A DNA stretch of 43,643 nt from Nitrospirota bacterium. Lineage in GTDB: Bacteria; Nitrospirota; UBA9217. The translations under genes were made by a program, and so were the position numbers. How positions within the stretch are numbered: the stretch's first letter is position 1; every line of letters starts with the position of its first letter. The DNA lies in NCBI GenBank assembly GCA_029858565.1, contig JAOUEV010000028.1, positions 1 to 43,643 on the forward strand, read 5' to 3'. Below are positions 2,751-42,276 of the stretch, one piece after another. The notes beneath the pieces are model-generated. The model was not told the origin of the DNA. It saw only the letters and a program-made list of their open reading frames with translations, and made no database searches.

Positions 2751-2793
2751 GGAACGGCAGGAGATGATATTCTTCTTGCCGTTCTTTTTTTTT
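2751..2793 (+). terminator. Rho-independent terminator
   Basis: GAACGGCA (2752-2759) pairs with TGCCGTTC (2777-2784). The stem extends inward through G-U, G-C, A-U and G-U pairs and is followed directly by nine T (2785-2793). It ends the lipoprotein operon. It also shows that the in-frame ATG at 2764, which lies inside this hairpin, is not the start of the next gene. Confidence 0.85.
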
Positions 2794-2856
2794 GCGACTA
2801 CAATCAGAGCGTCAGGTAGCAGGATCGGAAGTTTTGTTCCTCCAGGGAGGCCACTT

Positions 2857-5760
2857 GTGCGACGGGCAGTATTCGTATTTGCAGTTCTCGTTCTTCTCGC
2901 GGCAGGCAATGCCTTCGCCAAATTCGATCCCTCTTTTGACTGGACCACGGTCGAGACCCCGCACTTCCTGATCCACCATCACCAGGGCGGCGAGGAGATC
3001 GCGAAGCGGGTCGCGGTCCTTGCCGAGGACATCCATAACCGCCTGACGCCTCGAATCAAATGGGAACCCAGGGACAAGACCCATCTGGCGCTCGTTGACG
3101 CCATGGATGAGGCGAACGGGTACTCCTTTCCCATCCCCTATAATCAGGTTGTCATTTACCTCTCCGCTCCCTCGGGCGAGCAGGGGCTCGGTCTCGTGTC
3201 CTATGACGACTGGCTGCGGCTCGTGATCACCCATGAATACACCCACACGCTGCAGCTCGACATGGTGCGGCGCGGGCCGCGGCGGCTGCAGAAGGTGCTC
3301 GGCAGGATCTATTTCCCCAACCTGTTCCAGCCGAGCTGGATGATCGAAGGCCTTGCCACCTACGAGGAGACCGAGCAGACCAGCGGCGGCAGGGGGCGGT
3401 CCGCATGGGAGGAAATGATCTTACGGGCAGCGGTGCTGGAGCATGGATTCCCGACCCTGGGACAGGCTTCGGTATTTCCCGACACCTGGCCGTCGGGCCT
3501 GGTGCCCTATCTTTTCGGCGAGGGATTCACGCGCTACCTTGCTGACCGTTTTGGCAGGGACAAGATCGCTGAGTTAAGCCTAGCCTACAGCGGCAGGGGC
3601 TGGCCCTTCCTGGTCGGGTCCACGGGAAAGCAGGTGCTTGGCAAGGATTATGAGACGCTCTGGTTCGAGTGGGAGGTGGAGCTCAGGACAAAGTACCGCG
3701 ACCAGGAAAAGCAGGTCCGGTCACTCGGCGTTACGCCGTCGACCCGTCTGACCAACCGGGGATTCGTGAACACAGGCCCCGCGTTCTCGCCTGACGGTTC
3801 GAAGATCGCCTACGCAGTCGCTGATGCTGACGAATATCCGGCCGTCCATGTGATGAACGCCGACGGCAGCAATGACCGCGCGGTTGTGGAGAATGTTTTT
3901 CCCTCGTCCACTTCCGGAGCATCGGTCTCCTGGAGCCCTGACGGCAACAGGCTCTACTATACCAAGGTAGATCTGGCGAAGAACACGAACTATTACAGCG
4001 ATCTCTATGTCTATGACCTCCGGACAAAGAAGGAGACGCGGCTGACCAAAGGCCTGCGCAGCCGAGATCCCCATCCATCCCCTGACGGGACCAGGATCCT
4101 TTTCGTGATGAACTCGCTCGGAAGGACAAGGCTTGCGACGCTCGATCTTGCGAAGACCGTCAAATGCCCGGCTGGAGAAAAGGACATCGTTCTTTTGACG
4201 CCCTGGAGCAGCGATCAGTACGCATCCCCGAGGTGGAGCCCCGATGGATCACGCATTGCCGTGACCGTGCAGCAGGCGGCCGGTTTCAGGGACATTCAGG
4301 TCCTTGATGCTGGCGGCGCGAAGCTCGCCGACGTGAGCCACGACCGGGCCCTTGACGGAGCACCTGCCTGGAGCCCTGACGGGACGGCTCTCTATTTCTC
4401 CTCCGACCGCTCGGGCATTTACAATATTTACGTTTATGATCTCCTGACCGGCAAGGCCTTCAGGCTGAGCAATGTGGTCAACGGCGCGTTCACACCATCG
4501 CCTTCGCCAGACGGACGTTCGCTTGCAATAACCTCCTACAGTTCATCGGGATTCGATATTCACCTGATGCAGGTCCCTGACCGAGGTGAATGGGCCGAGG
4601 CAGCGGTCTATGTGGACCGTTATCCCGCAATGACCTACGAAGAAAAATCCGTTGAGACAGCGAGCCGTCCCTACAGCCCGCTCTCCACGATCTATCCCCG
4701 CTTCTGGCTGCCCTGGGCTGGATACAGCGAAGCAAGCGGCACATTGCTCGGCGCTCTCACCTTTGGCCAGGACGCGGTCCAGCGGCATCGGTATGTTGCC
4801 ACGGCGTTCTACGGTCCCAAGAACAGCAGGACGTGGTATGGCCTTGATTATTTCTACGACGGTTTTTATCCCACGATTCATCTGCATGCTTCGGACACCG
4901 ACATTGCCTACGCGAACTTTCTTGAGGACACGGTATCACGGCGCGACTATGTTGAGCGTGCAAAGACCTACGGCGCGTCGCTGGTCATCCCGGTGCTGAA
5001 GAACGAGCAGCAGCAGGCTGTCACCATCGGGTATCGCAGACGGGATACCTCGGCCCTGACCGGTCTGCCGCCCTGGACAGGTTATGCCGGTCTCCTGCCC
5101 GGCGAGGGCATGCTTGCGTCGGGCAGGGTAAAATATAATTACAACAGCAGCAGGCGCTACGCCCTCTCGATCAGTCCCGAGGATGGGCGGACCGTGAACC
5201 TGGGTGCCGAGCGTTTCACGGAATCCTTTGGCAGTGACTTTGAGTTCACGAAATACACTGCTGACTGGCACGAGTACCTTGACCTGCCGGGCAGGCATCA
5301 CGTGCTCCAGGCGCGGGCCTTTGTGGGAAGGGCGATCGGCGATGCTCCTATCCAGGGAGCATATCAGCTCGGCGGGGATAACCCCGGTGATGTGACCATG
5401 TCGCTCGAGGACCGTACCGTGTACCTGCGCGGCTATCCCATGAACGTCATGCGGGGAAGCAAAGTCGGCCTGGCTAGCCTCGAGTACCGCTTTCCGCTGA
5501 GCGTCCTCGAAAAGGGATGGAACACCAAGGCGGTCTACTTCCGCAAGCTCCACGGCGCGCTTTTCTACGAAGCAGGCAGCGCCTGGGACGGAACGTTACG
5601 GGGAGACTATATCAGGAAGAGCGTCGGCGGCGAACTGCGGTTCGATGTTGACCTGGCCTACTATCTGCCGATCACCTTCCGGTTCGTGATAGCGAGGGGA
5701 CTTGATGAGGACGGTCAGTCGCAGGCCTATCTGGGGCTGTGGATGCCGCTGTCATTGTGA
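2857..5760 (+). CDS. Secreted metallopeptidase / TolB propeller / outer-membrane beta-barrel fusion
   Basis: 967 residues from a GTG start with AGGGAGG at 2844-2850 (6-base spacing). This start gives a clean signal peptide (cleavage near AFA, residue 21). Residues 22-290 are a gluzincin-type peptidase domain: zinc motif HEYTH at 126-130 with the catalytic Glu at 127, and the probable third ligand Glu 164 in EGLATYEE. Residues about 293-580 are repeated PD40/TolB-like propeller blades (FSPDGSKIAY, WSPDGNRLYY, PSPDGTRILF, WSPDGSRIAV, WSPDGTALYF, PSPDGRSLAI). Residues about 600-967 are aromatic-rich alternating strands like a bacterial surface antigen (Omp85 C-terminal) barrel, ending in a run typical of outer-membrane proteins. 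I infer a surface or periplasmic protease tethered by its own barrel. Substrate is unknown. Confidence 0.8.
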   Translation: MRRAVFVFAVLVLLAAGNAFAKFDPSFDWTTVETPHFLIHHHQGGEEIAKRVAVLAEDIHNRLTPRIKWEPRDKTHLALVDAMDEANGYSFPIPYNQVVIYLSAPSGEQGLGLVSYDDWLRLVITHEYTHTLQLDMVRRGPRRLQKVLGRIYFPNLFQPSWMIEGLATYEETEQTSGGRGRSAWEEMILRAAVLEHGFPTLGQASVFPDTWPSGLVPYLFGEGFTRYLADRFGRDKIAELSLAYSGRGWPFLVGSTGKQVLGKDYETLWFEWEVELRTKYRDQEKQVRSLGVTPSTRLTNRGFVNTGPAFSPDGSKIAYAVADADEYPAVHVMNADGSNDRAVVENVFPSSTSGASVSWSPDGNRLYYTKVDLAKNTNYYSDLYVYDLRTKKETRLTKGLRSRDPHPSPDGTRILFVMNSLGRTRLATLDLAKTVKCPAGEKDIVLLTPWSSDQYASPRWSPDGSRIAVTVQQAAGFRDIQVLDAGGAKLADVSHDRALDGAPAWSPDGTALYFSSDRSGIYNIYVYDLLTGKAFRLSNVVNGAFTPSPSPDGRSLAITSYSSSGFDIHLMQVPDRGEWAEAAVYVDRYPAMTYEEKSVETASRPYSPLSTIYPRFWLPWAGYSEASGTLLGALTFGQDAVQRHRYVATAFYGPKNSRTWYGLDYFYDGFYPTIHLHASDTDIAYANFLEDTVSRRDYVERAKTYGASLVIPVLKNEQQQAVTIGYRRRDTSALTGLPPWTGYAGLLPGEGMLASGRVKYNYNSSRRYALSISPEDGRTVNLGAERFTESFGSDFEFTKYTADWHEYLDLPGRHHVLQARAFVGRAIGDAPIQGAYQLGGDNPGDVTMSLEDRTVYLRGYPMNVMRGSKVGLASLEYRFPLSVLEKGWNTKAVYFRKLHGALFYEAGSAWDGTLRGDYIRKSVGGELRFDVDLAYYLPITFRFVIARGLDEDGQSQAYLGLWMPLSL

Positions 5761-5776
5761 AAAAAATCGAGAGGCC

Positions 5777-5803
5777 GTTAGGGGTAAGGTGTTAGGGGTA
5801 AGG
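5777..5803. repeat. Tandem GTTAGGGGTAAGG direct repeat
   Basis: GTTAGGGGTAAGG occurs at 5777-5789 and again at 5791-5803, followed by GGGTGAGG-like variants up to the ribosome-binding site of the next gene. It fills the 70-base gap between two genes. Similar GGGCTAGG units occur at 20811-20890. Confidence 0.7.
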
Positions 5804-5830
5804 GGTGAGGCAAGTGAAGGTGAGGTAATC

Positions 5831-6721
5831 ATGATCCTTGTAACTGGTGCAACGGGATTTGTAGGCCGTCATCTGGTGAAGCGACTGCGGCAGGACGGGT
5901 TCGCTGTCCGTGCTGTTGTCAGGACGCCTGCAAAGGCCTCATGGCTCAAGGACCTGGGCGTCGAGGTCGTTCCCGGCGATATCAGCGACCAGACGTCGCT
6001 TGAAGCGGCAGTCCAGGGTTGCGATAAGGTCATCCACCTGGTCGGCATCATCCAGGAAGGCCGCGGGTTCACTTTCCGGAGCGTGCACGTGGACGGCACG
6101 CGCAATGTCCTTGATTCGGCGAAGAAAGCCGGGGTGAGGCACTTCTTTTACCAGAGCGCGCTGGGCACGCGGGAACACGCGAAGAGCGAATATCACAAGA
6201 CCAAGTGGGAGGCTGAGAAGCTTGTCAAGGCATCGGGCATTCCCTATACCATTCTGCGGCCGTCGCTGATCTACGGTTCAGGCGACCTATTCACGATCCG
6301 GCTGGCTGAGATGATCCGCCTTTCCCCGGTCCTTCCGGTGATCGGGACCGGCAGATCGAAGATCCAGCCGATCTTCATCGATGACGTGGTGACTTGCATG
6401 GCCAGGATACTGAAGGATGATAGGTTCCTGAACAAGACCTTTGAGATCGGCGGGCCTGAAGAGCTTTCCTACGAAGAGGTTACCCGGGCCATTGCAGCGG
6501 CACTGGGCGTACGCCGGCCGACCGTGCATATGCCGCTCTTCTTCATGCGCACGGTTGCGAAGATCGGTGAATCTTTGCTGCCCAAGCCGCCGGTGACCAC
6601 GGACCAGCTGATCATGCTGCAGGAGGACAATGTCTGCGGCTTGAAGGACATCCGCGAGGCATTCGGCGTGGAGCCGGTGAAGTTCGCTGAGGGACTGAAG
6701 CGGTTCCTGGGAAGAACCTAA
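5831..6721 (+). CDS. Atypical SDR / NAD(P)-dependent epimerase-like (NDUFA9-type)
   Basis: 296 residues with an N-terminal Rossmann fold: GATGFVG at 6-12 binds the dinucleotide, and a YHKTK (Tyr121, Lys125) sits at the place of the SDR catalytic pair. The length and the motifs LRPSLIYGSGD and IQPIFIDDVV are typical of complex-I NDUFA9-like atypical SDR proteins, many of which bind NADPH without proven catalysis. AAGGTGAGG at 5817-5825 supports the ATG at 5831; the longer upstream frame runs through the GTTAGGGG repeat and is not coding. Neighbours give no pathway. An epimerase, a reductase or a quinone-related chaperone are all possible. Confidence 0.85.
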   Translation: MILVTGATGFVGRHLVKRLRQDGFAVRAVVRTPAKASWLKDLGVEVVPGDISDQTSLEAAVQGCDKVIHLVGIIQEGRGFTFRSVHVDGTRNVLDSAKKAGVRHFFYQSALGTREHAKSEYHKTKWEAEKLVKASGIPYTILRPSLIYGSGDLFTIRLAEMIRLSPVLPVIGTGRSKIQPIFIDDVVTCMARILKDDRFLNKTFEIGGPEELSYEEVTRAIAAALGVRRPTVHMPLFFMRTVAKIGESLLPKPPVTTDQLIMLQEDNVCGLKDIREAFGVEPVKFAEGLKRFLGRT

Positions 6722-6728
6722 GCAGATC

Positions 6729-6843
6729 TTTGACACTGAGGACACTGAAGAATCATAGACACAGAACATGCTGATATAGGGACGGAAAAAGACGAGAATC
6801 GACGTGCTTTTTCATAGGTCTTTTCAGTGTCTTCAGTGTCAAA
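6729..6843. repeat. Palindromic intergenic element, 21-bp arms
   Basis: The arm at 6729-6749 and the reverse complement of 6823-6843 match at 20 of 21 bases. Each arm is itself a double GACACTGA unit. Inside, GAAAAAG (6785-6791) faces CTTTTTC (about 6807-6813). The 222-base gap 6722-6943 lies between convergent genes and holds nothing else I can support. It could act as a bidirectional terminator or be a mobile palindrome. Confidence 0.65.
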
Positions 6844-6943
6844 ATAAAAGTCTTTGGTTTGAGCCGCAGGCTCGGTGTCAAAACGGAGGGCCATCATGAG
6901 CGGACCGGCCGTGGTAATTGGGCGGAAGGGCGGTAGCGGAGCA

Positions 6944-8128
6944 TTATTCCAGCGCGTACAGCGTCCTTCCGGCGCTGAAGTAGATCGTCCTTCCGACCGG
7001 CAGAGGCGCGCCGGGCGCATTGCGCTGCGCGGGCTGGAATTGCCACAGTTCCTTGCCATTGGCGGCGTCGAATGCGTGCAGGATGCCATGGCCGTCAGCT
7101 GCGTATACGGTCCTGCCTGCCACGGCCGGCGGTTCCTCGAACCACGCATCGATGTAGTGCTGCCAACGGACCTGCCCGGTGAGCGCATCAACGGCATAGA
7201 ACGTTCCCGCGCGGTCGTCGCTTGTGCCGAAGTATACCGTGCCGTCGGCGACCGCCGGCGTGTTCGCCGCGCCCTGGGCTGCCACTTTCCAGAGGACCTG
7301 GCCTGTTTGCCGGGACAGGGCCAGCAAGGCGCCCCGGACGCCTGAACCGATGGTGATATAGATCCTGTCGCCGAAGACAGCCGGAGCGCCGCGCAGGGAC
7401 AGGATGTTGGGCACCTCCCAGAGCTTGCCGCCGTCGCTCGCGCGGATCGCGAAGAAGCCGCCCCCGGTCAGCAGGTGGCCTGAGTTCCCGTAGCCGAAGT
7501 ACACCACGCCGTCGGCGATCGCCGGCGGGGTCACCACGCGGTTCCGGGTCTTGAAGAGCCATCGTTCGTCGCCGGTCGCGGCGTCGATCGCGGCGAGAAA
7601 CCCGTGGTCCTCACGGGAGCCCGGGAACGAGCCGCCGCCGTAATAGAGCATCCCGTTCACCAGGGCAGGCGAGGTCGGACGGACGGTGCCGGTCAGGACC
7701 TTCCAGCGGATGTCGCCGCTTCGAGTGTCCATGGCGTAGAGAGCGTTCATCGATGCACCGAAATACACCGTGTTGTTCACGATCGCCGGCGCGCCGGCGC
7801 CGGAGAGGTGGTATTTCCAGCGAAGCGTTCCCCTGCTTCTGTCGATCGCGTAGAGGTACTCGTCATCGCCAAGGAACAGGGTGTTTCCGGCAACCACGGG
7901 CGGTGACAGGAAGTGTCCTTCCGCTGTGAATGACCATTTCACCGATGGTTTTGCGGTGATCTGCGCGGCGCGGAATGAGCCGGTCCTCTGCAGATCACCG
8001 CGGAACCATGAAGCGGAAACCGGCATTTCGCCCTGCCGGACCGGAGCCGGGCCTCCTTCGTCGCAAAAGGACGGCGCCGGCGCAGCGAAAAGAACACCTG
8101 TCAGCAGCAAGCAAGCAACGGACCGCAT
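6944..8128 (-). CDS. Secreted PQQ-type beta-propeller protein
   Basis: 394 residues with a signal peptide (to about residue 22). The rest is about eight repeats of the PQQ/quinoprotein-dehydrogenase blade, each ending in an Asp/Thr-G-x-x-x-W signature (RGTLRW, SGDIRW, TGDERW, DGGKLW, TGQVLW, TGQVRW, NGKELW) followed by a PAVADGTVYFG strand. There are no dehydrogenase active-site regions beyond the propeller, so a scaffold or BamB-like binding role is more likely than alcohol oxidation. AGGGAG lies at about 8137-8142 on this strand. It is divergent from the RCC1 gene pair, with about 106 bases between the starts that probably carry both promoters. Confidence 0.85.
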   Translation of the reverse strand: MRSVACLLLTGVLFAAPAPSFCDEGGPAPVRQGEMPVSASWFRGDLQRTGSFRAAQITAKPSVKWSFTAEGHFLSPPVVAGNTLFLGDDEYLYAIDRSRGTLRWKYHLSGAGAPAIVNNTVYFGASMNALYAMDTRSGDIRWKVLTGTVRPTSPALVNGMLYYGGGSFPGSREDHGFLAAIDAATGDERWLFKTRNRVVTPPAIADGVVYFGYGNSGHLLTGGGFFAIRASDGGKLWEVPNILSLRGAPAVFGDRIYITIGSGVRGALLALSRQTGQVLWKVAAQGAANTPAVADGTVYFGTSDDRAGTFYAVDALTGQVRWQHYIDAWFEEPPAVAGRTVYAADGHGILHAFDAANGKELWQFQPAQRNAPGAPLPVGRTIYFSAGRTLYALE

Positions 8129-8234
8129 AAACGATCTCCCTCTTCAGTCTGGTGTCGTACCGGAACGTATAGTATCATAGTGTCCGGCAAAGGGAAAGAA
8201 CTCAAGGCGCTGGTTCCCGGGACCAGGAGGCTGC

Positions 8235-10628
8235 ATGAGAAAGCTCATAGGCATTGTCGTACTGCTCGGGCTGCTGATCGTCCTGGCGGTCCTCATCGTG
8301 TCGCGGGGTGACCGTGAGCAAACGGACCGTGTCCCGAAGGACGCAACAAAGGCGCTGGCAAGCCCTGTGGTCGCGATTTCCGCTGCAGGCAACCGCGCGG
8401 TCGCGCGCAAGGCCGACGGGTCGGTCTGGGTCTGGGGCGGCCCCCTTCAGGACACGGGGTTCGCTTACCCGGGGGCCAGCGGTGAACCCCGGCTGCTGAA
8501 TGATGCCGGCATCGCGGCAGACGCGATCGCAGGTCCTTACGGCCTTCTGCTCAGAAAAACGGACAGCACGCTGTGGGAGCGGAGCAGGCGAACCGGCGGT
8601 AAAGCGGTGCAGATGGCCGGTCCGGTGAGATCTGCAGCGGCAGGGGAACAACATGCTGCCGCAGTCACGGAAGACGGCAGGGTCCTGACCTGGGGAGAGA
8701 ACGCTTTAGGCCAGCTCGGCCGGGGGGTGCGAGATGACGGCGCTGCTCCGGAACCGGTGACCGACAGTGCGGGCATGCCGCTTACGGGCATTATCGCGGT
8801 CGCGGCCGGCGCGGGCCATACGCTCGCCCTCAGGAACGACGGGACCATTATGGCATGGGGCGCCAATGGATCAGGCCAGCTGGGCGACGGCTCGGTGATG
8901 AACCGCATGGTGCCGGTCCCTGTCCCGGGGCCGGCCGACATCATCGCCATTTCCTGCGGATACGCCCACTCGCTCGCGGTCGCGCGGGACGGGACGGTCT
9001 GGGCGTGGGGCGCGAACGAATCAGGACAGCTCGGCGACGGCACCTATGACCTCCGGCTGACACCGGTCCGTGTGGCGCAGCTGACCGAGGTGCGTCAGGT
9101 CGCGGCGGGTCTCAAGCACAGCGCTGCTGTGCGGAAGGACGGCACGGTCTGGACCTGGGGCGGGAACCGTCAGGGCCAGCTCGGCATCGAAGGTCCGATG
9201 ATGAGTCCCCTGCCGCGGCAGGTGGCTGAGCTGGCGAACGTCGCGATGGTGGCTTGCGGGGCGGAGTTCTCCGCGGCATTGAAGGACGACGGGTCCGTGT
9301 GGGCCTGGGGTGACAACCGGTCGTTCCAGATGGGAGCGGGCCATCGGTCACATCGAACGATCCCGGTGCAGGTCGCTGCGTTCGGCCCGGTCCGCGATGG
9401 AGGCGATGAATATTCCCGAACGCGGTACGAGCGTTCTCCGGCAGTTCCCGGTGTCGGCCTTGCGGCGCAGGATATAGCGGCCGGCGGATATCACAATCTG
9501 GCGATCGTCAGCAACGGCAGGGTCCTTGCCTGGGGCCGGAATCATCATGGCCAGCTCGGCGACGGGACGACTTTGGGCAGCGCGGTCCCGGTCGCGGTGA
9601 CAGGCCTGAGCGATGTAGCGGCGATCGCCGGCGGGGGTCAACATTCAGCTGCACTGAAAAAGGACGGCACGGTCTGGACCTGGGGCGGGAACCGCTATGG
9701 TCAGCTCGGGAACGGAACGCGCCAGGATTCCGCAGTGCCCGTGGCGGTCAGCGGCCTTGACAACGTGAAAGCGGTCTCGGCGGGCTGGTCGCATACCCTC
9801 GCGATAGGCAAGGACGGCACGGTCTGGGCGTGGGGCGATAATTATTACGATCAGCTCGGCAACGGGACCGGGGCGAGCTCGGACCTGCCCCTGCAGGTGC
9901 CGGGTCTGCAGAACGCGATCGCGGTCTCCGCGGGCCGGTATCACAGTGCCGCGCTGACCAGCGACGGGTCCCTGTGGGTCTGGGGCGCGAACGATGCCGG
10001 TCAGCTCGGTCCCGGGATCACGGAACGGGCAGTCACGCCCGTCCGGGTCCAGGCACTCGCGCGGATCGCGGCCGTCGCTGCCTGTGATCACCACACGCTT
10101 GCCCTGACCGGCTGGAACGGAAGGGTGCTGTCCTGGGGCGGCAATGAATACGGTCAGCTGGGACATGGGGCGGTGAGCCGGTCCCTCCCGAACGTGGGCG
10201 CTGACCCTCCGCGGCTGTATATCTCGATCGTCAGCGGAGGGTCCCCTCCCGAGTCCCTGATCAATGAGCTTGCGGTCAGGCTCAGCGGCCGGCCCTACAT
10301 CCAGAGCGGCGCGGGGGAGGGATCGCTCACGGCCATCGTCGGCATGGCCTGCGGCGGAGACCATGGCGTCGCGCGCGGGAACGGCGGCCCGGTCTATTCC
10401 TGGGGCAGGAACAACTTCGGTCAGCTTGGCAGCGGTTATCCCTGGGAGGATTCCGGACTTGCCGGCGCGGTTCCGCAGGTCATGGCCAAGGCGGTTGCCG
10501 CAGGATATGAACATTCGATCGCCCTGCTCGAGAATGGATCGGTCGTTGCCTGGGGAAGCAACGAGTACGGACAGCTGGGGGATGCCACGCGGGACGACGT
10601 CAGGGACCGTCCTGTCACTGTCAGGTAG
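8235..10628 (+). CDS. Membrane-anchored RCC1-repeat protein, two 7-blade propellers
   Basis: 797 residues with one N-terminal membrane helix (5-23) and no cleavage site, so the rest should lie in the periplasm. The body is RCC1 repeats of the form AAG-x-x-H-S-x-A-L-x-x-DGTVWAWG-x-N-x-x-GQLGDGT. I count 14 blades by eye: 7 up to about residue 380 (the second is degenerate, DSTLWERS), a 25-residue linker with GGDEYSRTRYERS, then 7 more. A roughly 55-residue insertion (about 645-698) sits between blades 12 and 13. AGGAGG at 8225-8230 supports the ATG. RCC1 folds as a seven-bladed propeller, so 14 blades fit two domains. The partner or ligand is unknown; a longer paralogue follows 34 bases downstream. 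Confidence 0.88.
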   Translation: MRKLIGIVVLLGLLIVLAVLIVSRGDREQTDRVPKDATKALASPVVAISAAGNRAVARKADGSVWVWGGPLQDTGFAYPGASGEPRLLNDAGIAADAIAGPYGLLLRKTDSTLWERSRRTGGKAVQMAGPVRSAAAGEQHAAAVTEDGRVLTWGENALGQLGRGVRDDGAAPEPVTDSAGMPLTGIIAVAAGAGHTLALRNDGTIMAWGANGSGQLGDGSVMNRMVPVPVPGPADIIAISCGYAHSLAVARDGTVWAWGANESGQLGDGTYDLRLTPVRVAQLTEVRQVAAGLKHSAAVRKDGTVWTWGGNRQGQLGIEGPMMSPLPRQVAELANVAMVACGAEFSAALKDDGSVWAWGDNRSFQMGAGHRSHRTIPVQVAAFGPVRDGGDEYSRTRYERSPAVPGVGLAAQDIAAGGYHNLAIVSNGRVLAWGRNHHGQLGDGTTLGSAVPVAVTGLSDVAAIAGGGQHSAALKKDGTVWTWGGNRYGQLGNGTRQDSAVPVAVSGLDNVKAVSAGWSHTLAIGKDGTVWAWGDNYYDQLGNGTGASSDLPLQVPGLQNAIAVSAGRYHSAALTSDGSLWVWGANDAGQLGPGITERAVTPVRVQALARIAAVAACDHHTLALTGWNGRVLSWGGNEYGQLGHGAVSRSLPNVGADPPRLYISIVSGGSPPESLINELAVRLSGRPYIQSGAGEGSLTAIVGMACGGDHGVARGNGGPVYSWGRNNFGQLGSGYPWEDSGLAGAVPQVMAKAVAAGYEHSIALLENGSVVAWGSNEYGQLGDATRDDVRDRPVTVR

Positions 10629-10662
10629 TTCCCGGGAAAGAGACACTGCTCCAGGAGGGGAC

Positions 10663-13600
10663 ATGAAACAGCTGCTGATCATCATCGTCGTCATCGCGCT
10701 TATCGCAATCGCGGGCGTCACGTTCCTTCCCCGGCTGTTCACCTCCGTGCCCGATGCTGCATCCGGTCCGGCCGTGCTGAGCGGTGTCGGTGCCGCGGCA
10801 GCCGGGTTCGGTCACACACTGGCGGTGAAGGTCGACCGCACGGTCTGGGCATGGGGCAGGAACGATCTCGGCCAGCTGGGCGACGGGACCACCGCTGACC
10901 GGACCACGGCCCGGCAGGTAGCGGGGATCAGCGGGATCACGGCAATAGCCGCCGGAGAAGGACACAGTTTGGCGCTCACGGCCGAGGGGACCGTTGTTGC
11001 CTGGGGCGGCAATGAGCACGGCCAGCTCGGAGACGAAGAGACGCTGCAGCGGTCCCTGCCGCGCGAGATAGACGGCCTGCTCTCGGTGACCGCGATCGCC
11101 GCAGGCGAGAACCACTCTCTGGCGCTCAAGAGCGACGGAACCGTGATCGCCTGGGGGAGCAACGAGTCAGGGCAGCTCGGCGACGGGACGAAGGAGTCGC
11201 GCGGTGTGCTTCGCCCGGTTCCGGGGGTCGCGTCCGTATCTGCCATTGCCAGCGGACGGGGCCACGTGGCCGCGGCGCTGCAGGACGGCACGGTCCTCAC
11301 CTGGGGCGCGAACAACGCTGGCCAGCTCGGCGACGGATCGACCAGGGAAAGGAATTCCCCGGCTCCGGTCAGCGGTCTTGCCGGCATCACCGCCGTGGCC
11401 TGCGGCCATGACCACACGCTCGCTCTCCGGTCCGACGGCACGGTCTGGGCCTGGGGCGCCAACGACGCGGGCCAGATCGGCGACGGGACCACGGAAATGC
11501 GGCAGCGGCCCGTGCAGGTTCCGGGCCTGGAGGGAGCGGTCGCCCTTGCCGCCGGACACCGCCACTCCCTCGCGCTGCTGGGGAACGGTGATGTGCGGAT
11601 CTGGGGATCGAACTTCCATTATCAGCAGGCGCGGCGGTTCGGGGCCATGCAGCCCCAGCCGCAGACGGTCGCTTCGCTGGACAGCGGCGTCGCGGCCATC
11701 GCGTCGGGCGCGTATCACGTTCTGGCGGTGGATGGCGCGGGAACACTGCGGTCCTGGGGCTTTAATCACTACGGCCAGCTGGGCGACGCAACGCTCGACT
11801 ATCGCTCCGCGCCGGTGCAGACGCTCGCGTCCGCAGGAGGGCCGGCGCCTGTTCAAAAGCCCGGAGCAGGCCAGGCGTCGGCAAAGGATTCGGCGATCAT
11901 TGATTTAGCCGCGGGGAGGTCCCATTCAGCGGCCCTCAAGGGCGACGGGACCGTCTGGACCTGGGGGGACAATTTTCACGGCCAGCTGGGCGACGGCGCA
12001 CGCCGCACCATCAGACCGCGGCCACAGCTTGCACAGAACCTCTACCAGGTGAAGGCGATAGCGGCAGGGAACAATATCACCCTCGCGCTCAGGCAGGACG
12101 GCACGGTCTGGGCATGGGGCAATAACGAGAACCGCCAGCTCGGCGATGGATCAAAAGCACAGAGCCGGGCGCTTCCCGTGCAGGTCCAGGGCCTCACGGA
12201 CGTGATCACCCTTGCCTCGAGCGGCAATGTTTCGCTGGCCCTTCGTTCCGACGGCACGGTCTGGACCTGGGGGCTCGCGTTCAACGGGGCCGGCGCCAAC
12301 GCAGCGCCGCAGACGCCGGCGAAAGTAGCGGGGGTCGGACCTGCCGCGGCCATTGCCGCAGGCCATGACCATTTCCTCGTCCTGTGCAGGGACGGCACGG
12401 TCTGGGCCTGGGGCAAGAACGAGTTCGGCCAGGTCGGAGACGGCAGCACTGTGGAACGGCGCGGTCCGGTCAGCGTCGCCGGGTTGACGGACGTTGCGGC
12501 GATCGCCGCGGGCGGCAAGCACAGCGTGGCGCTCAAAAAGGACGGGACCGTTTGGGCATGGGGCCTGGTGCGGGCGATGCGGACGAAGAACTACCTGGAA
12601 GCGTGCAGTCCGTCTCCCGCGGCGATCGCGGGGCTGCAGGATATCACCGCTATAGCGGCTGGAGACGGTCACACGATCGCGCTCAAAAAGGACGGAACCA
12701 TCTGGGGCTGGGGCCGCGGATCTCAGAGCCAGCTGGGAGGCAGGGTGGCGACAATGACCGACACGGTCGTCCAGGTCACCGATCTGACAGGCGTGGCACG
12801 GATCGCCGCGGGATGGGACCACAATCTGGCGATGCTGATGAACGGAACGCTGGTGACCTGGGGATATAACGAATACGGCCAAACGGGCGATGGGAGCCAG
12901 GGACTGACCGAGCACGGGTCCAAGACGTTCAATAAGAGCGTTCTCGGAAAGAGGACTCCCGGTCCTGTTGCGTGGTCTGTGCCAGCCGCCCCCCAGGGAG
13001 ACCGGCCGAAGCGGTCGGTCAAGACCGTCTCCCTGGGCGGGACCCACTCGGGGATCCTGATGGATGACGGCACGGTCTGGGTCTGGGGGGATAATTCGTA
13101 CCAGCAGCTGGGCGGGCGCGCGGATATCACCACCCCGGACGGCAAACTGCTGTCAGCGGTCTTCCACAAGGAGAAGCCATTTCCCATGGTCGGGCTGAGC
13201 AGCATCATCGCGATCGACATGGGCATGTTCCATTCCCTGGTCCTGCGCAACGACCGGACCGTGGCCCAGTGGGGCAGGAGCTATGACGATTCGGCCTATG
13301 AACAGAAGATCGACTCCTTCGGCCTTAGCGAGCGGATCGCTCATGACCGGAGCATGAGCAGCGGCAGGGGGAAGCCTGCGGCGGCCATGAGCGGGGTCGT
13401 GGGCGAACTGACCGACGTGGCGGCGGTCAGCGCCGGCGCCGGGTTCTCACTGGCCCTCAGGCAGGACGGCACGGTCTGGGCATGGGGCGTGAACAGCTAT
13501 GGCCAGCTGGGCGACGGAACGACGGCGCACCGAAAAGTGCCCAAGCCGGTGCAGGAGCTGTCCGGGATCACCGCCATTGCGGCGGGGGGGAACTATGCCG

Positions 13601-14139
13601 TCGCCCTGGCGAACGACGGATCGGTGTGGGGCTGGGGGCTGACCTCGTACCGGAAATCAGGGGGGAAAATGTTCCCGCAGGCGTCTGTGAAGCCCCTTCG
13701 CATCGCAGGTCTGGCCGGCGTGATCGCCGTAGCAGCCGCGGGAGAGCCCCTGGCGCTCATGGCCGATGGAACCGTCTGGTCCTGCTGGACCTGGCAGCGG
13801 GAAGATCCCCTGGCATTCGGCCCGGCCCCGATCGCGGGACTGGAGAACATCACGGAGATCTCATCGGAAGGAAACCATACCGTCGCGCTCGGCAGGAGCG
13901 GGGTCTATGAGATGAACGGATACCGCACGATCGCGAAGGACGGGAACATGACGACAACGCGCCATATCGCGGCTGTCGAGGAAGCCGATGGCGCAGAGCA
14001 TGTGGCCGCCGGCGCATCCCATGGAATGCTGCTGAAGCGGGACGGCACAGTCTGGGCATGGGGGGACAACGAATTCGGCCAACTGGGAGACAAGACCGAG
14101 CATGACAGCATGTATCCGCTGCTGATCCGGATCCCCTGA
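10663..14139 (+). CDS. Membrane-anchored RCC1-repeat protein, three 7-blade propellers
   Basis: 1158 residues. AGGAGGGG at 10653-10660 and a membrane helix at residues 4-20 set the start at ATG 10663; the open frame upstream lies inside the previous gene. By eye there are 21 blade positions in three groups of seven: about 45-385, 410-743 and 783-1158. They are separated by a Pro/Ala/Gln/Lys linker (GGPAPVQKPGAGQ) and a second linker with KSVLGKRTPGPVAW. In the last group blades 5 (WSCWTWQRE) and 6 (GVYEMNGYR) are degenerate. The protein is closely related to the gene before it, probably by tandem duplication plus gain of one propeller. It is predicted to be an anchored periplasmic binding platform. 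No enzymatic motif was seen. Confidence 0.88.
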   Translation: MKQLLIIIVVIALIAIAGVTFLPRLFTSVPDAASGPAVLSGVGAAAAGFGHTLAVKVDRTVWAWGRNDLGQLGDGTTADRTTARQVAGISGITAIAAGEGHSLALTAEGTVVAWGGNEHGQLGDEETLQRSLPREIDGLLSVTAIAAGENHSLALKSDGTVIAWGSNESGQLGDGTKESRGVLRPVPGVASVSAIASGRGHVAAALQDGTVLTWGANNAGQLGDGSTRERNSPAPVSGLAGITAVACGHDHTLALRSDGTVWAWGANDAGQIGDGTTEMRQRPVQVPGLEGAVALAAGHRHSLALLGNGDVRIWGSNFHYQQARRFGAMQPQPQTVASLDSGVAAIASGAYHVLAVDGAGTLRSWGFNHYGQLGDATLDYRSAPVQTLASAGGPAPVQKPGAGQASAKDSAIIDLAAGRSHSAALKGDGTVWTWGDNFHGQLGDGARRTIRPRPQLAQNLYQVKAIAAGNNITLALRQDGTVWAWGNNENRQLGDGSKAQSRALPVQVQGLTDVITLASSGNVSLALRSDGTVWTWGLAFNGAGANAAPQTPAKVAGVGPAAAIAAGHDHFLVLCRDGTVWAWGKNEFGQVGDGSTVERRGPVSVAGLTDVAAIAAGGKHSVALKKDGTVWAWGLVRAMRTKNYLEACSPSPAAIAGLQDITAIAAGDGHTIALKKDGTIWGWGRGSQSQLGGRVATMTDTVVQVTDLTGVARIAAGWDHNLAMLMNGTLVTWGYNEYGQTGDGSQGLTEHGSKTFNKSVLGKRTPGPVAWSVPAAPQGDRPKRSVKTVSLGGTHSGILMDDGTVWVWGDNSYQQLGGRADITTPDGKLLSAVFHKEKPFPMVGLSSIIAIDMGMFHSLVLRNDRTVAQWGRSYDDSAYEQKIDSFGLSERIAHDRSMSSGRGKPAAAMSGVVGELTDVAAVSAGAGFSLALRQDGTVWAWGVNSYGQLGDGTTAHRKVPKPVQELSGITAIAAGGNYAVALANDGSVWGWGLTSYRKSGGKMFPQASVKPLRIAGLAGVIAVAAAGEPLALMADGTVWSCWTWQREDPLAFGPAPIAGLENITEISSEGNHTVALGRSGVYEMNGYRTIAKDGNMTTTRHIAAVEEADGAEHVAAGASHGMLLKRDGTVWAWGDNEFGQLGDKTEHDSMYPLLIRIP

Positions 14140-14228: not shown

Positions 14229-14258
14229 TTGACATCCTTTTGCGGCTTCTGCTATCAT
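14229..14258 (+). promoter_or_regulatory. Sigma70-type promoter of the NfeD-flotillin operon
   Basis: TTGACA at 14229-14234 and TATCAT at 14253-14258 with an 18-base spacer. The predicted start near 14265 gives a leader of about 37 bases with AGGAGG at 14291-14296. Confidence 0.7.
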
Positions 14259-40491: not shown

Positions 40492-42276
40492 TTACTCTGC
40501 CCGCACGAGGTCTTCGAACCGGATATCCACTCCGAAGACGCCGATGATATTGCTCTCGTCGTCGGAGACGGGAGCCGACACGGTGATGCAGAGCGCACCG
40601 GTGATCTTGGACGTGTAGAAGTCCGATACGTAGCTCTTGCCGTCCTTCATGGGATTGATGAACCACGGACGGTCGGAGAAATCATCGCCCAGGCCCGCGG
40701 TCTCGTACTTGGCCTTGTCCACGATGTCGGTTATGTTCCTCGTGATCTTCTTGCCCTGGGGATTGACCACATACGCGAACTGGATGTAGGGATCCTCGCG
40801 CTGCAGCTTTTCCATGACCGGCTCCTGCTTCGCCGGATCCATGGACCTGATCTCAGGCCGCTCCACGAAGGCTTCGACAATGTGGCGCGCGACCTCCGCG
40901 GCCTTTGTCTTGAGCTTGTCAAGATCGGAGACAAAGTATTCAGGCAAATACTTCTTGGCCTTTTCGAGCAGTTCATCATGGGAGATGCTGGTGGTCCGTC
41001 CCTGTTCATACTGTTCCATGACCCACTTGTTCATTTTCACGATCCCGGGGTGGCGCTTGTCGATCTTCTTGTCCGCGTCGGGCTGGAGGTGACTGTTCGC
41101 CCAGTGGGCGATGCCGGCGACGCCGGACTTGTCCGTGATGATCACGCCCATGGGCCGGTTCAGGATCGTGGTGGTGTCGAAAATGTTGTAGATCTCCTCG
41201 TTCTTCATCATGCCGTCGGCATGGATGCCGGCGCTCGTGGAGTTGAACTCCGAGCCCACAAAGGGGTAGTTGTGAGGAATGTTGAAGTCCAGGTCCTTCC
41301 GGAAGAACTCCGCCATCTCGGTGATCGCCGTGGTGTCGATCCCCGCGTCGTCGCCGGTGAGGCCCATGTAATCGAACAGGAGCGCCTCGATGGGCGTGTT
41401 CCCGGTGCGTTCGCCGAAGCCCAGGAGCGCGCCGTTCACCGATGAACATCCGTACATCCATGCTGCCACGCCGTTCACCAGGACCTTGTGGAAGTCATTG
41501 TGGCCGTGCCACTCCAGCTGTTCCGAGGGAACGCCGCCGTCGTGTATCAGCGCGTAGAAGATCTCCGGCACGCCGCGCGGCAGGGCCGTACCCGGGAAGG
41601 GAAATCCGTAGCCCATGGTGTCGCAGGCCCGGATCTTGACCGGGATGCGGGATTCTTCGGACAGCTTCATCAGCTCCTGGGCAAAGGGGATCACGAATCC
41701 GTAGAAGTCCGCCCGGGTGATGTCCTCGAGGTGGCAGCGCGGCACAATGCCCTGGTCGAGCGCGGTCTTCACGATCCCCAGGTAATTGTCCAGCGCCTGT
41801 TTCCGCGACCAGTTCAGCTTCAGGAAGATATGGTAGTCCGAGCAGGAAGTGAGAATGCCGGTCTCCTTCAGCCCCATGCTCTTCACGAGCTTGAAGTCGT
41901 TCTTGTTGGCCCGGATCCAGCCGGTCACTTCCGGGAACCGGTAACCGCGGTCAAGGCAGAGCCGTACCGCTTCCTGGTCCTTCTGGGAGTAGAGGAAGAA
42001 CTCGGTCTGGCGGATGACGCCCTTGGGGCCGCTCATGCGGTGCATGTAATCGAAGATCGTGACGATCTGCTTGGGCGTATAGGGCGGTCGCGACTGCTGG
42101 CCGTCGCGGAACGTGGTGTCGGTGATCCAGATGTCCTTGGGCAGGTTCGCCTGGATCAACCGGTCCTCGAACACGACCTTGGGCGCGCTGGTGTAGGGGA
42201 ACATGTCCCGGTAGAGCACCGGTTCCTTCACGTCCTTCAGCTCGAAGGGCGTACGCACTTTTTTCTGCTGGATCAT
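40492..42276 (-). CDS. HMGL-family acyltransferase with C-terminal Cache-like domain
   Basis: 594 residues. The catalytic TIM barrel is complete: TDTTFRDGQQ with Asp53, Arg57 and Asp58, metal-binding HGHND (His257, His259) and GFGERTGNTP, as in isopropylmalate, citramalate, homocitrate and Re-citrate synthases, which condense acetyl-CoA with a 2-oxoacid. Residues about 370-490 are helical with ISHDELLEKAKKYLP. Residues about 495-594 look like a single Cache sensor domain (YIQFAYVVNPQGKKIT, FSDRPWFINPMKDGKSYVSDFYTS, TGALCITVSAPV, IIGVFGVDIRFEDL), normally extracytoplasmic in chemoreceptors. No signal peptide or membrane helix is present, so here it would be a cytoplasmic regulatory domain. AGGAGG precedes the ATG. 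The substrate is open. Confidence 0.85.
   Translation of the reverse strand: MIQQKKVRTPFELKDVKEPVLYRDMFPYTSAPKVVFEDRLIQANLPKDIWITDTTFRDGQQSRPPYTPKQIVTIFDYMHRMSGPKGVIRQTEFFLYSQKDQEAVRLCLDRGYRFPEVTGWIRANKNDFKLVKSMGLKETGILTSCSDYHIFLKLNWSRKQALDNYLGIVKTALDQGIVPRCHLEDITRADFYGFVIPFAQELMKLSEESRIPVKIRACDTMGYGFPFPGTALPRGVPEIFYALIHDGGVPSEQLEWHGHNDFHKVLVNGVAAWMYGCSSVNGALLGFGERTGNTPIEALLFDYMGLTGDDAGIDTTAITEMAEFFRKDLDFNIPHNYPFVGSEFNSTSAGIHADGMMKNEEIYNIFDTTTILNRPMGVIITDKSGVAGIAHWANSHLQPDADKKIDKRHPGIVKMNKWVMEQYEQGRTTSISHDELLEKAKKYLPEYFVSDLDKLKTKAAEVARHIVEAFVERPEIRSMDPAKQEPVMEKLQREDPYIQFAYVVNPQGKKITRNITDIVDKAKYETAGLGDDFSDRPWFINPMKDGKSYVSDFYTSKITGALCITVSAPVSDDESNIIGVFGVDIRFEDLVRAE

Follow-up and report, generated by a model that had tools for sequence, protein, structure and literature searches.

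The question raised by the locus described here is what two adjacent bacterial genes, each encoding a hydrophobic N-terminal helix followed by a long run of RCC1 repeats, contribute to the cell. The genes, denoted R1 and R2, are found in a 43,643-nucleotide stretch of DNA from a Nitrospirota bacterium (contig JAOUEV010000028.1 of assembly GCA_029858565.1), which is referred to as the window. In an earlier note, 14 and 21 blades were counted by eye for the two proteins, and double and triple seven-bladed propellers hung on a single helix were proposed.

Blade Number and Fold of R1 and R2

The features of the two genes are listed below.

8235–10628 (+): R1, 797 aa, N-terminal transmembrane helix and 14 RCC1 blades (2 × 7); from the ORF, Pfam, HMM, and AlphaFold2
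8361–9383 (+): R1 propeller 1, blades 1–7, aa 43–383; HMM blades and AlphaFold2 strands 45–379
8514–8618 (+): R1 degenerate blade 2, about aa 94–128 (Trp114); missed by the HMM, recovered by alignment with 14-blade homologues and by AlphaFold2
9384–9458 (+): R1 inter-propeller linker with a short helix, aa 384–408; low AlphaFold2 confidence at 386–407, helix 392–399
9459–10625 (+): R1 propeller 2, blades 8–14, aa 409–797; HMM and AlphaFold2
10179–10322 (+): R1 disordered insertion within blade 12, aa 649–696; pLDDT <50, mostly uncovered by homologues
10663–14139 (+): R2, 1158 aa, N-terminal transmembrane helix and 21 RCC1 blades (3 × 7); ORF, Pfam, and 21 HMM blades
10780–11832 (+): R2 propeller 1, blades 1–7, aa 40–390; seven regular HMM blades at ~50-aa spacing
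11890–12936 (+): R2 propeller 2, blades 8–14, aa 410–758; HMM and seven AlphaFold2 sheets
13012–14136 (+): R2 propeller 3, blades 15–21, aa 784–1158, the most divergent propeller; HMM and seven AlphaFold2 sheets
13843–13986 (+): R2 degenerate blade 20, about aa 1061–1108; 1.1 bits with the HMM, AlphaFold2 strands at residues 664–706 of the folded fragment

The believable Pfam models in R1 and R2 are all of the RCC1 type (PF00415, PF13540, PF25390, and PF25384). Scores of 455.6 and 502.1 bits were obtained with PF00415 for R1 and R2, respectively, relative to a curated cut-off of 21.7, and the corresponding scores with PF25390 are 538.6 and 894.4 bits. The Pfam scan gave no other believable domain, in agreement with the earlier statement that the two proteins carry no enzyme domain.

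Blades were located using an HMM trained on R1 and R2 themselves. With R1, 13 units were detected, and the absent unit between W67 and W153 corresponds to the degenerate blade 2. This stretch is aligned one-to-one in 15 homologues with 14 blades, which mostly skip residues 649–696, and it appears in the AlphaFold2 model as four strands (94–100, 103–108, 113–117, and 125–128) with a pLDDT of about 70–85. The full model of R1 (mean pLDDT of 82) consists of a helix at residues 2–23, seven four-stranded sheets (45–379), the linker, and seven further sheets (411–795). The fourth strand of blade 12 is gone, displaced by the disordered insertion. One pairwise alignment hinted that residues 649–696 form an eighth blade of propeller 2; this assignment was ruled out because most homologues skip the segment and AlphaFold2 leaves it disordered. 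The Foldseek alignment of the R1 model spans the propeller boundary with a TM of about 0.5, and closure of the two predicted propellers is therefore judged from the strand count of the model.

The coordinates and reading frames of the two genes were verified. The start of R2 was assigned to the ATG at 10663, the longer ORF from 10264 being a mere frame extension. All 21 of 21 units were detected by the HMM, the weakest at residues 1062–1080 with 1.1 bits. AlphaFold2 was used to fold residues 400–1158 (pLDDT of 77), which gave two sets of seven sheets. One propeller of this model superimposes on UVR8 with a TM of 0.87 and 2.2 Å over 365 columns, and this propeller is thus closed in the model. 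Propeller 1 of R2 is probably seven-bladed as well, as judged from its regular blade spacing.

The counts of 14 and 21 were therefore confirmed, the first as 13 HMM units plus the degenerate blade 2 and the second directly by the HMM. Structure prediction returned groups of seven, and no other blade number, in R1 and in residues 400–1158 of R2. The AlphaFold2 strand order in sevens and the match of the R2 fragment to UVR8 are those of closed seven-bladed propellers, and the HMM, alignment, and structure prediction agree on a double and a triple propeller, each behind one N-terminal helix. The linkers had been described as falling exactly after each seventh blade. They do so in R1 at residues 384–408 and in R2, where the blades are split 7 + 7 + 7 at about 391–409 and 759–783, but three additional insertions had been overlooked: R1 649–696 and, around blades 15–17 of R2, about 830–846 and 876–916.

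Blade Numbers among RCC1 Relatives

A set of 91 nonredundant complete RCC1 ORFs from many phyla was assembled, drawing on 59 loci in named genomes and on additional Nitrospirota regions. The loci were picked by similarity to R1 or R2, and the census describes the relatives of these two proteins rather than RCC1 proteins at large. Blade counts of 7 (28 ORFs), 8 (14), 14 (28), 13 (4), 21 (2), and 28 (1) were obtained, together with a few others. In 12 of the 14 ORFs scored with eight blades, a partial first unit and a complementary partial last unit make up a single blade split across the two ends, for a true total of seven. With the window excluded, 30 of the 41 proteins with at least 10 blades contain a multiple of seven, relative to 1/7 expected by chance (p about 3e-17). 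Another 21-blade protein (7 + 7 + 7; 1322 aa) was found in the same phylum at locus L174 (G191:C16; ORF 3700–7665, − strand), with a signal peptide in place of the anchor, and a 28-blade protein was found in a Synergistaceae genome (L040). Two or more RCC1 ORFs occur at 13 of 96 loci, the window counted. The R1/R2 locus is thus not set apart by its multiples of seven or by its tandem arrangement, and the rarity implied earlier does not hold, since exported RCC1 proteins of 14 blades are common in bacteria, as are RCC1 genes in tandem.

The exported bacterial RCC1-repeat proteins (COG5184; PF00415/PF13540; Nitrospirota loci L174, L175, L178, and L189) resemble R1 and R2 in their 50-aa blades, mostly in sevens, in their export, and in their frequent tandem genes. 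They differ in having signal peptides or lipoboxes, whereas the anchor of R1 and R2 is apparently uncleaved. R1 and R2 are a correct observation of an already known protein type with a modest distinctive twist, and a clean case of the bacterial multi-propeller RCC1 proteins. Their distinctive features are small: the very hydrophobic, apparently uncleaved anchor and a divergently oriented gene for a BamB-like PQQ protein. The predominance of whole sevens in exported bacterial RCC1 chains makes selection on complete closed propellers testable.

Propellers of the RCC1/BLIP-II type are common among repetitive propellers and are mostly bacterial (PMC9218822), and myxobacteria contain many RCC1-like genes (PMC3035250). 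No paper joining RCC1 repeats with Nitrospira was found in the literature. The formation of two seven-bladed propellers from 14 consecutive blades, as in R1, has been described in another lineage for the WRAP propeller of Npun_R6612 (PMC9218822). Unlike R1 and R2, Npun_R6612 belongs to the WD40 lineage, has near-identical blades, and is part of a STAND ATPase.

Two features of the wider set were also recorded. In single-propeller RCC1 proteins, one blade is often made up jointly by the two chain ends (Velcro closure; 12 proteins), and the first blade is unsplit in nearly all of the multi-propeller proteins. An open ORF from an Oscillospiraceae MAG (L091, 2–20161) encodes 6720 aa, in which no fewer than 47 RCC1 units, irregularly spaced, were detected.

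Proposed N-Terminal Anchor and Topology

8238–8303 (+): R1 signal-anchor helix, aa 2–23; AlphaFold2 helix 2–23 and hydropathy
10666–10728 (+): R2 signal-anchor helix, about aa 2–22; sequence and hydropathy

The N-terminal hydropathy was compared across about 44 multi-propeller proteins. R1 ranks first (3.51) and R2 second (3.26), followed by a value of 3.06. Neither a lipobox nor a clear cleavage site is apparent in the N-terminal sequences of R1 and R2. Most multi-propeller homologues start with a signal peptide or a lipobox, which indicates that the family is exported. The positive-inside rule favors an N-in/C-out orientation of the anchor. The periplasmic location given in the earlier note is accordingly retained as an inference from this charge pattern and from the signals of the homologues, which together suggest that the propellers face the periplasm.

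The hydrophobic segment may instead be cleaved off as a long signal peptide, so that R1 and R2 would be soluble periplasmic or extracellular proteins like most exported bacterial RCC1 proteins. This reading is unlikely but carries real weight. It draws on the signal peptides and lipoboxes of the homologues, on a possible weak site in R2 (VPDAAS/G), and on the presence of one RCC1 protein among the outer membrane vesicle (OMV) proteins of Myxococcus (PMC4158809). Against it, a typical A-x-A sequence just past the hydrophobic core is absent from R1, from R2, and from the R1 orthologue of a second Nitrospirota genome (G006), and the hydropathy of R1 and R2 exceeds that of the signal peptides of the homologues.

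Proposed Function

The reading favored here, with somewhat better than even confidence, is that R1 and R2 are co-transcribed periplasmic scaffolds tethered to the inner membrane, whose closed seven-bladed propellers bind proteins of the cell envelope, with the BamB-like protein as the best partner candidate. One uncleaved N-terminal helix would hold each chain in the inner membrane, and the loop-lined faces of the propellers would bind envelope partners, so that each tether would display several such faces, from two propellers in R1 and from three in R2. A partner or a co-regulated component would be supplied by the BamB-like propeller protein, whose gene is read from the divergent promoter. 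Protein binding is the established job of the solved relatives RCC1, UVR8, RPGR, HERC2, and BLIP-II. The roles of these relatives, together with the fold and the absence of other domains, support the tethered scaffold, and the earlier suggestion of a large binding platform is plausible. Binding of proteins by RCC1 and BLIP-II is also described in the literature (PMC9218822). The membrane-tethered pair and its conserved divergent neighbor offer a practical entry to the function of exported bacterial RCC1 proteins.

Probable Operon and Divergent PQQ Gene

6944–8128 (−): exported PQQ/BamB-like propeller protein, 394 aa, divergent from R1; PF13360, 179.6 bits
8168–8180 (strand not assigned): TATAGTATCATAG, 13-bp conserved core of the promoter region shared by the divergent PQQ and R1 genes, identical in G006 (L134)
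8225–8230 (+): R1 ribosome-binding site AGGAGG; from the sequence
10653–10658 (+): R2 ribosome-binding site AGGAGG; from the sequence

The stop codon of R1 and the start codon of R2 are separated by 34 bp. This spacing and the AGGAGG sites make a single operon likely, and R1 and R2 are thus probably co-transcribed. The PQQ protein scores 113.1 bits against the BamB equivalog model TIGR03300, below the cut-off of 285.2, and is therefore termed BamB-like. A close relative (53% identical) was found in one other genome, G006, among 296 Nitrospirota genomes, where the PQQ gene likewise points away from an R1-type gene. Of the latter, the sequence up to the contig end covers the helix and the first blade (41% identity over residues 1–80). 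On its other flank, the PQQ gene has different neighbors in the window and in G006. The divergent arrangement, seen in two genomes, points to a small PQQ–R1 module, and the PQQ protein is the first candidate to consider as a partner or co-regulated component of R1 and R2.

A stronger proposal is that R1, R2, and the BamB-like protein assemble in the periplasm into a complex made of propellers only and tethered to the inner membrane, encoded by a small and patchily distributed Nitrospirota module. Such a complex is improbable at present; if real, it would be an envelope scaffold of a type without earlier description.

Another propeller gene lies nearby. A protein of 998 aa, encoded at 2764–5760 (+) of the window, has an unusual-looking combination in which a WD40-like PD40 propeller precedes an outer-membrane domain of the Omp85 type (PF07676 + PF01103).

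Origin and Distribution

R1 and R2 could also be products of a recent whole-propeller or whole-gene duplication, with their blade numbers a by-product of little function. The tandem genes, the same architecture, and the identity of about 40% in the alignment of R1 with R2 are consistent with such an origin. However, when the blades of the five propellers were compared by identity under cyclic shifts, both inside a propeller and from one propeller to another, no register was preferred. No recent whole-propeller duplication is therefore visible, and any duplication was old or proceeded blade by blade. The reading frames are also intact, and the G+C content at third codon positions (0.77–0.80) resembles that of the neighboring genes. 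The higher overall G+C content of R1 and R2 lies in the first and second positions of the codons, where repeats rich in Gly and Ala would be expected to place it. The by-product explanation is accordingly given little credence.

Searches of 61 relatives and of 296 Nitrospirota genomes gave no full-length orthologue of R1 or R2, the N-terminal fragment at the contig end in G006 being the single trace. The other congeneric genome yielded neither gene, and the role of R1 and R2 is therefore dispensable.

Downstream NfeD–Flotillin Genes

A functional tie between R1/R2 and the downstream NfeD–flotillin genes, for example as a raft-associated scaffold, was considered because R1 and R2 are their immediate upstream neighbors, with the same orientation. 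This association is very improbable and was dropped. A 160-bp gap precedes NfeD, the gene has a strong promoter-like site to itself (14229–14258, TTGACA-18-TATCAT), and the copies in G004 and G006 have no adjoining RCC1 gene in the sequence examined around them, so that the adjacency is not conserved.

Elsewhere in the window (40495–42276, −), a protein of 594 aa contains an HMGL-like (aldolase/lyase) domain joined to a Cache sensor domain, which is an odd pairing.

Comparison with Characterized RCC1-Type Proteins

RCC1 proper is the exchange factor for Ran and acts in the nucleus. R1 and R2 are bacterial and apparently exported, and a Ran-exchange role is therefore implausible. Several seven-bladed RCC1 domains per chain are found in HERC2, with three RCC1-like domains (RLDs), and in HERC1, and the solved RLDs match R1 and R2. 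HERC1 and HERC2 are, however, eukaryotic E3 ligases with a HECT domain, which was not found in the Pfam scan of R1 and R2.

In UVR8, the UV-B receptor, the sensor tryptophans 233, 285, and 337 lie in a repeated GWRHT motif. It is extremely unlikely that R1 and R2 are light sensors like UVR8 or enzyme inhibitors like the β-lactamase inhibitor BLIP-II: UVR8, a seven-bladed RCC1 propeller, is the best match in sequence and fold among solved proteins and BLIP-II matches too, but UVR8 is a soluble plant protein with one propeller, its repeated motif is missing (one GW-x-H each in R1 and R2), and the blades of R1 and R2 are about 50 aa in length, unlike the short BLIP-II type. As far as the sequence allows, a UV receptor role is excluded. 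BLIP-II is a secreted bacterial RCC1-type propeller that binds a protein tightly and targets class A β-lactamases. It is a single short-bladed propeller, whereas R1 and R2 have 14 and 21 blades at the longer spacing.

At four loci (L080, L084, L087, and L088), exported RCC1-like proteins have short blades of 37 aa, a spacing like that of BLIP-II. They mostly have 14 blades and come from MAGs labeled Acidobacteria, Dehalococcoidia, and Acidimicrobiia and from one unclassified bacterium.
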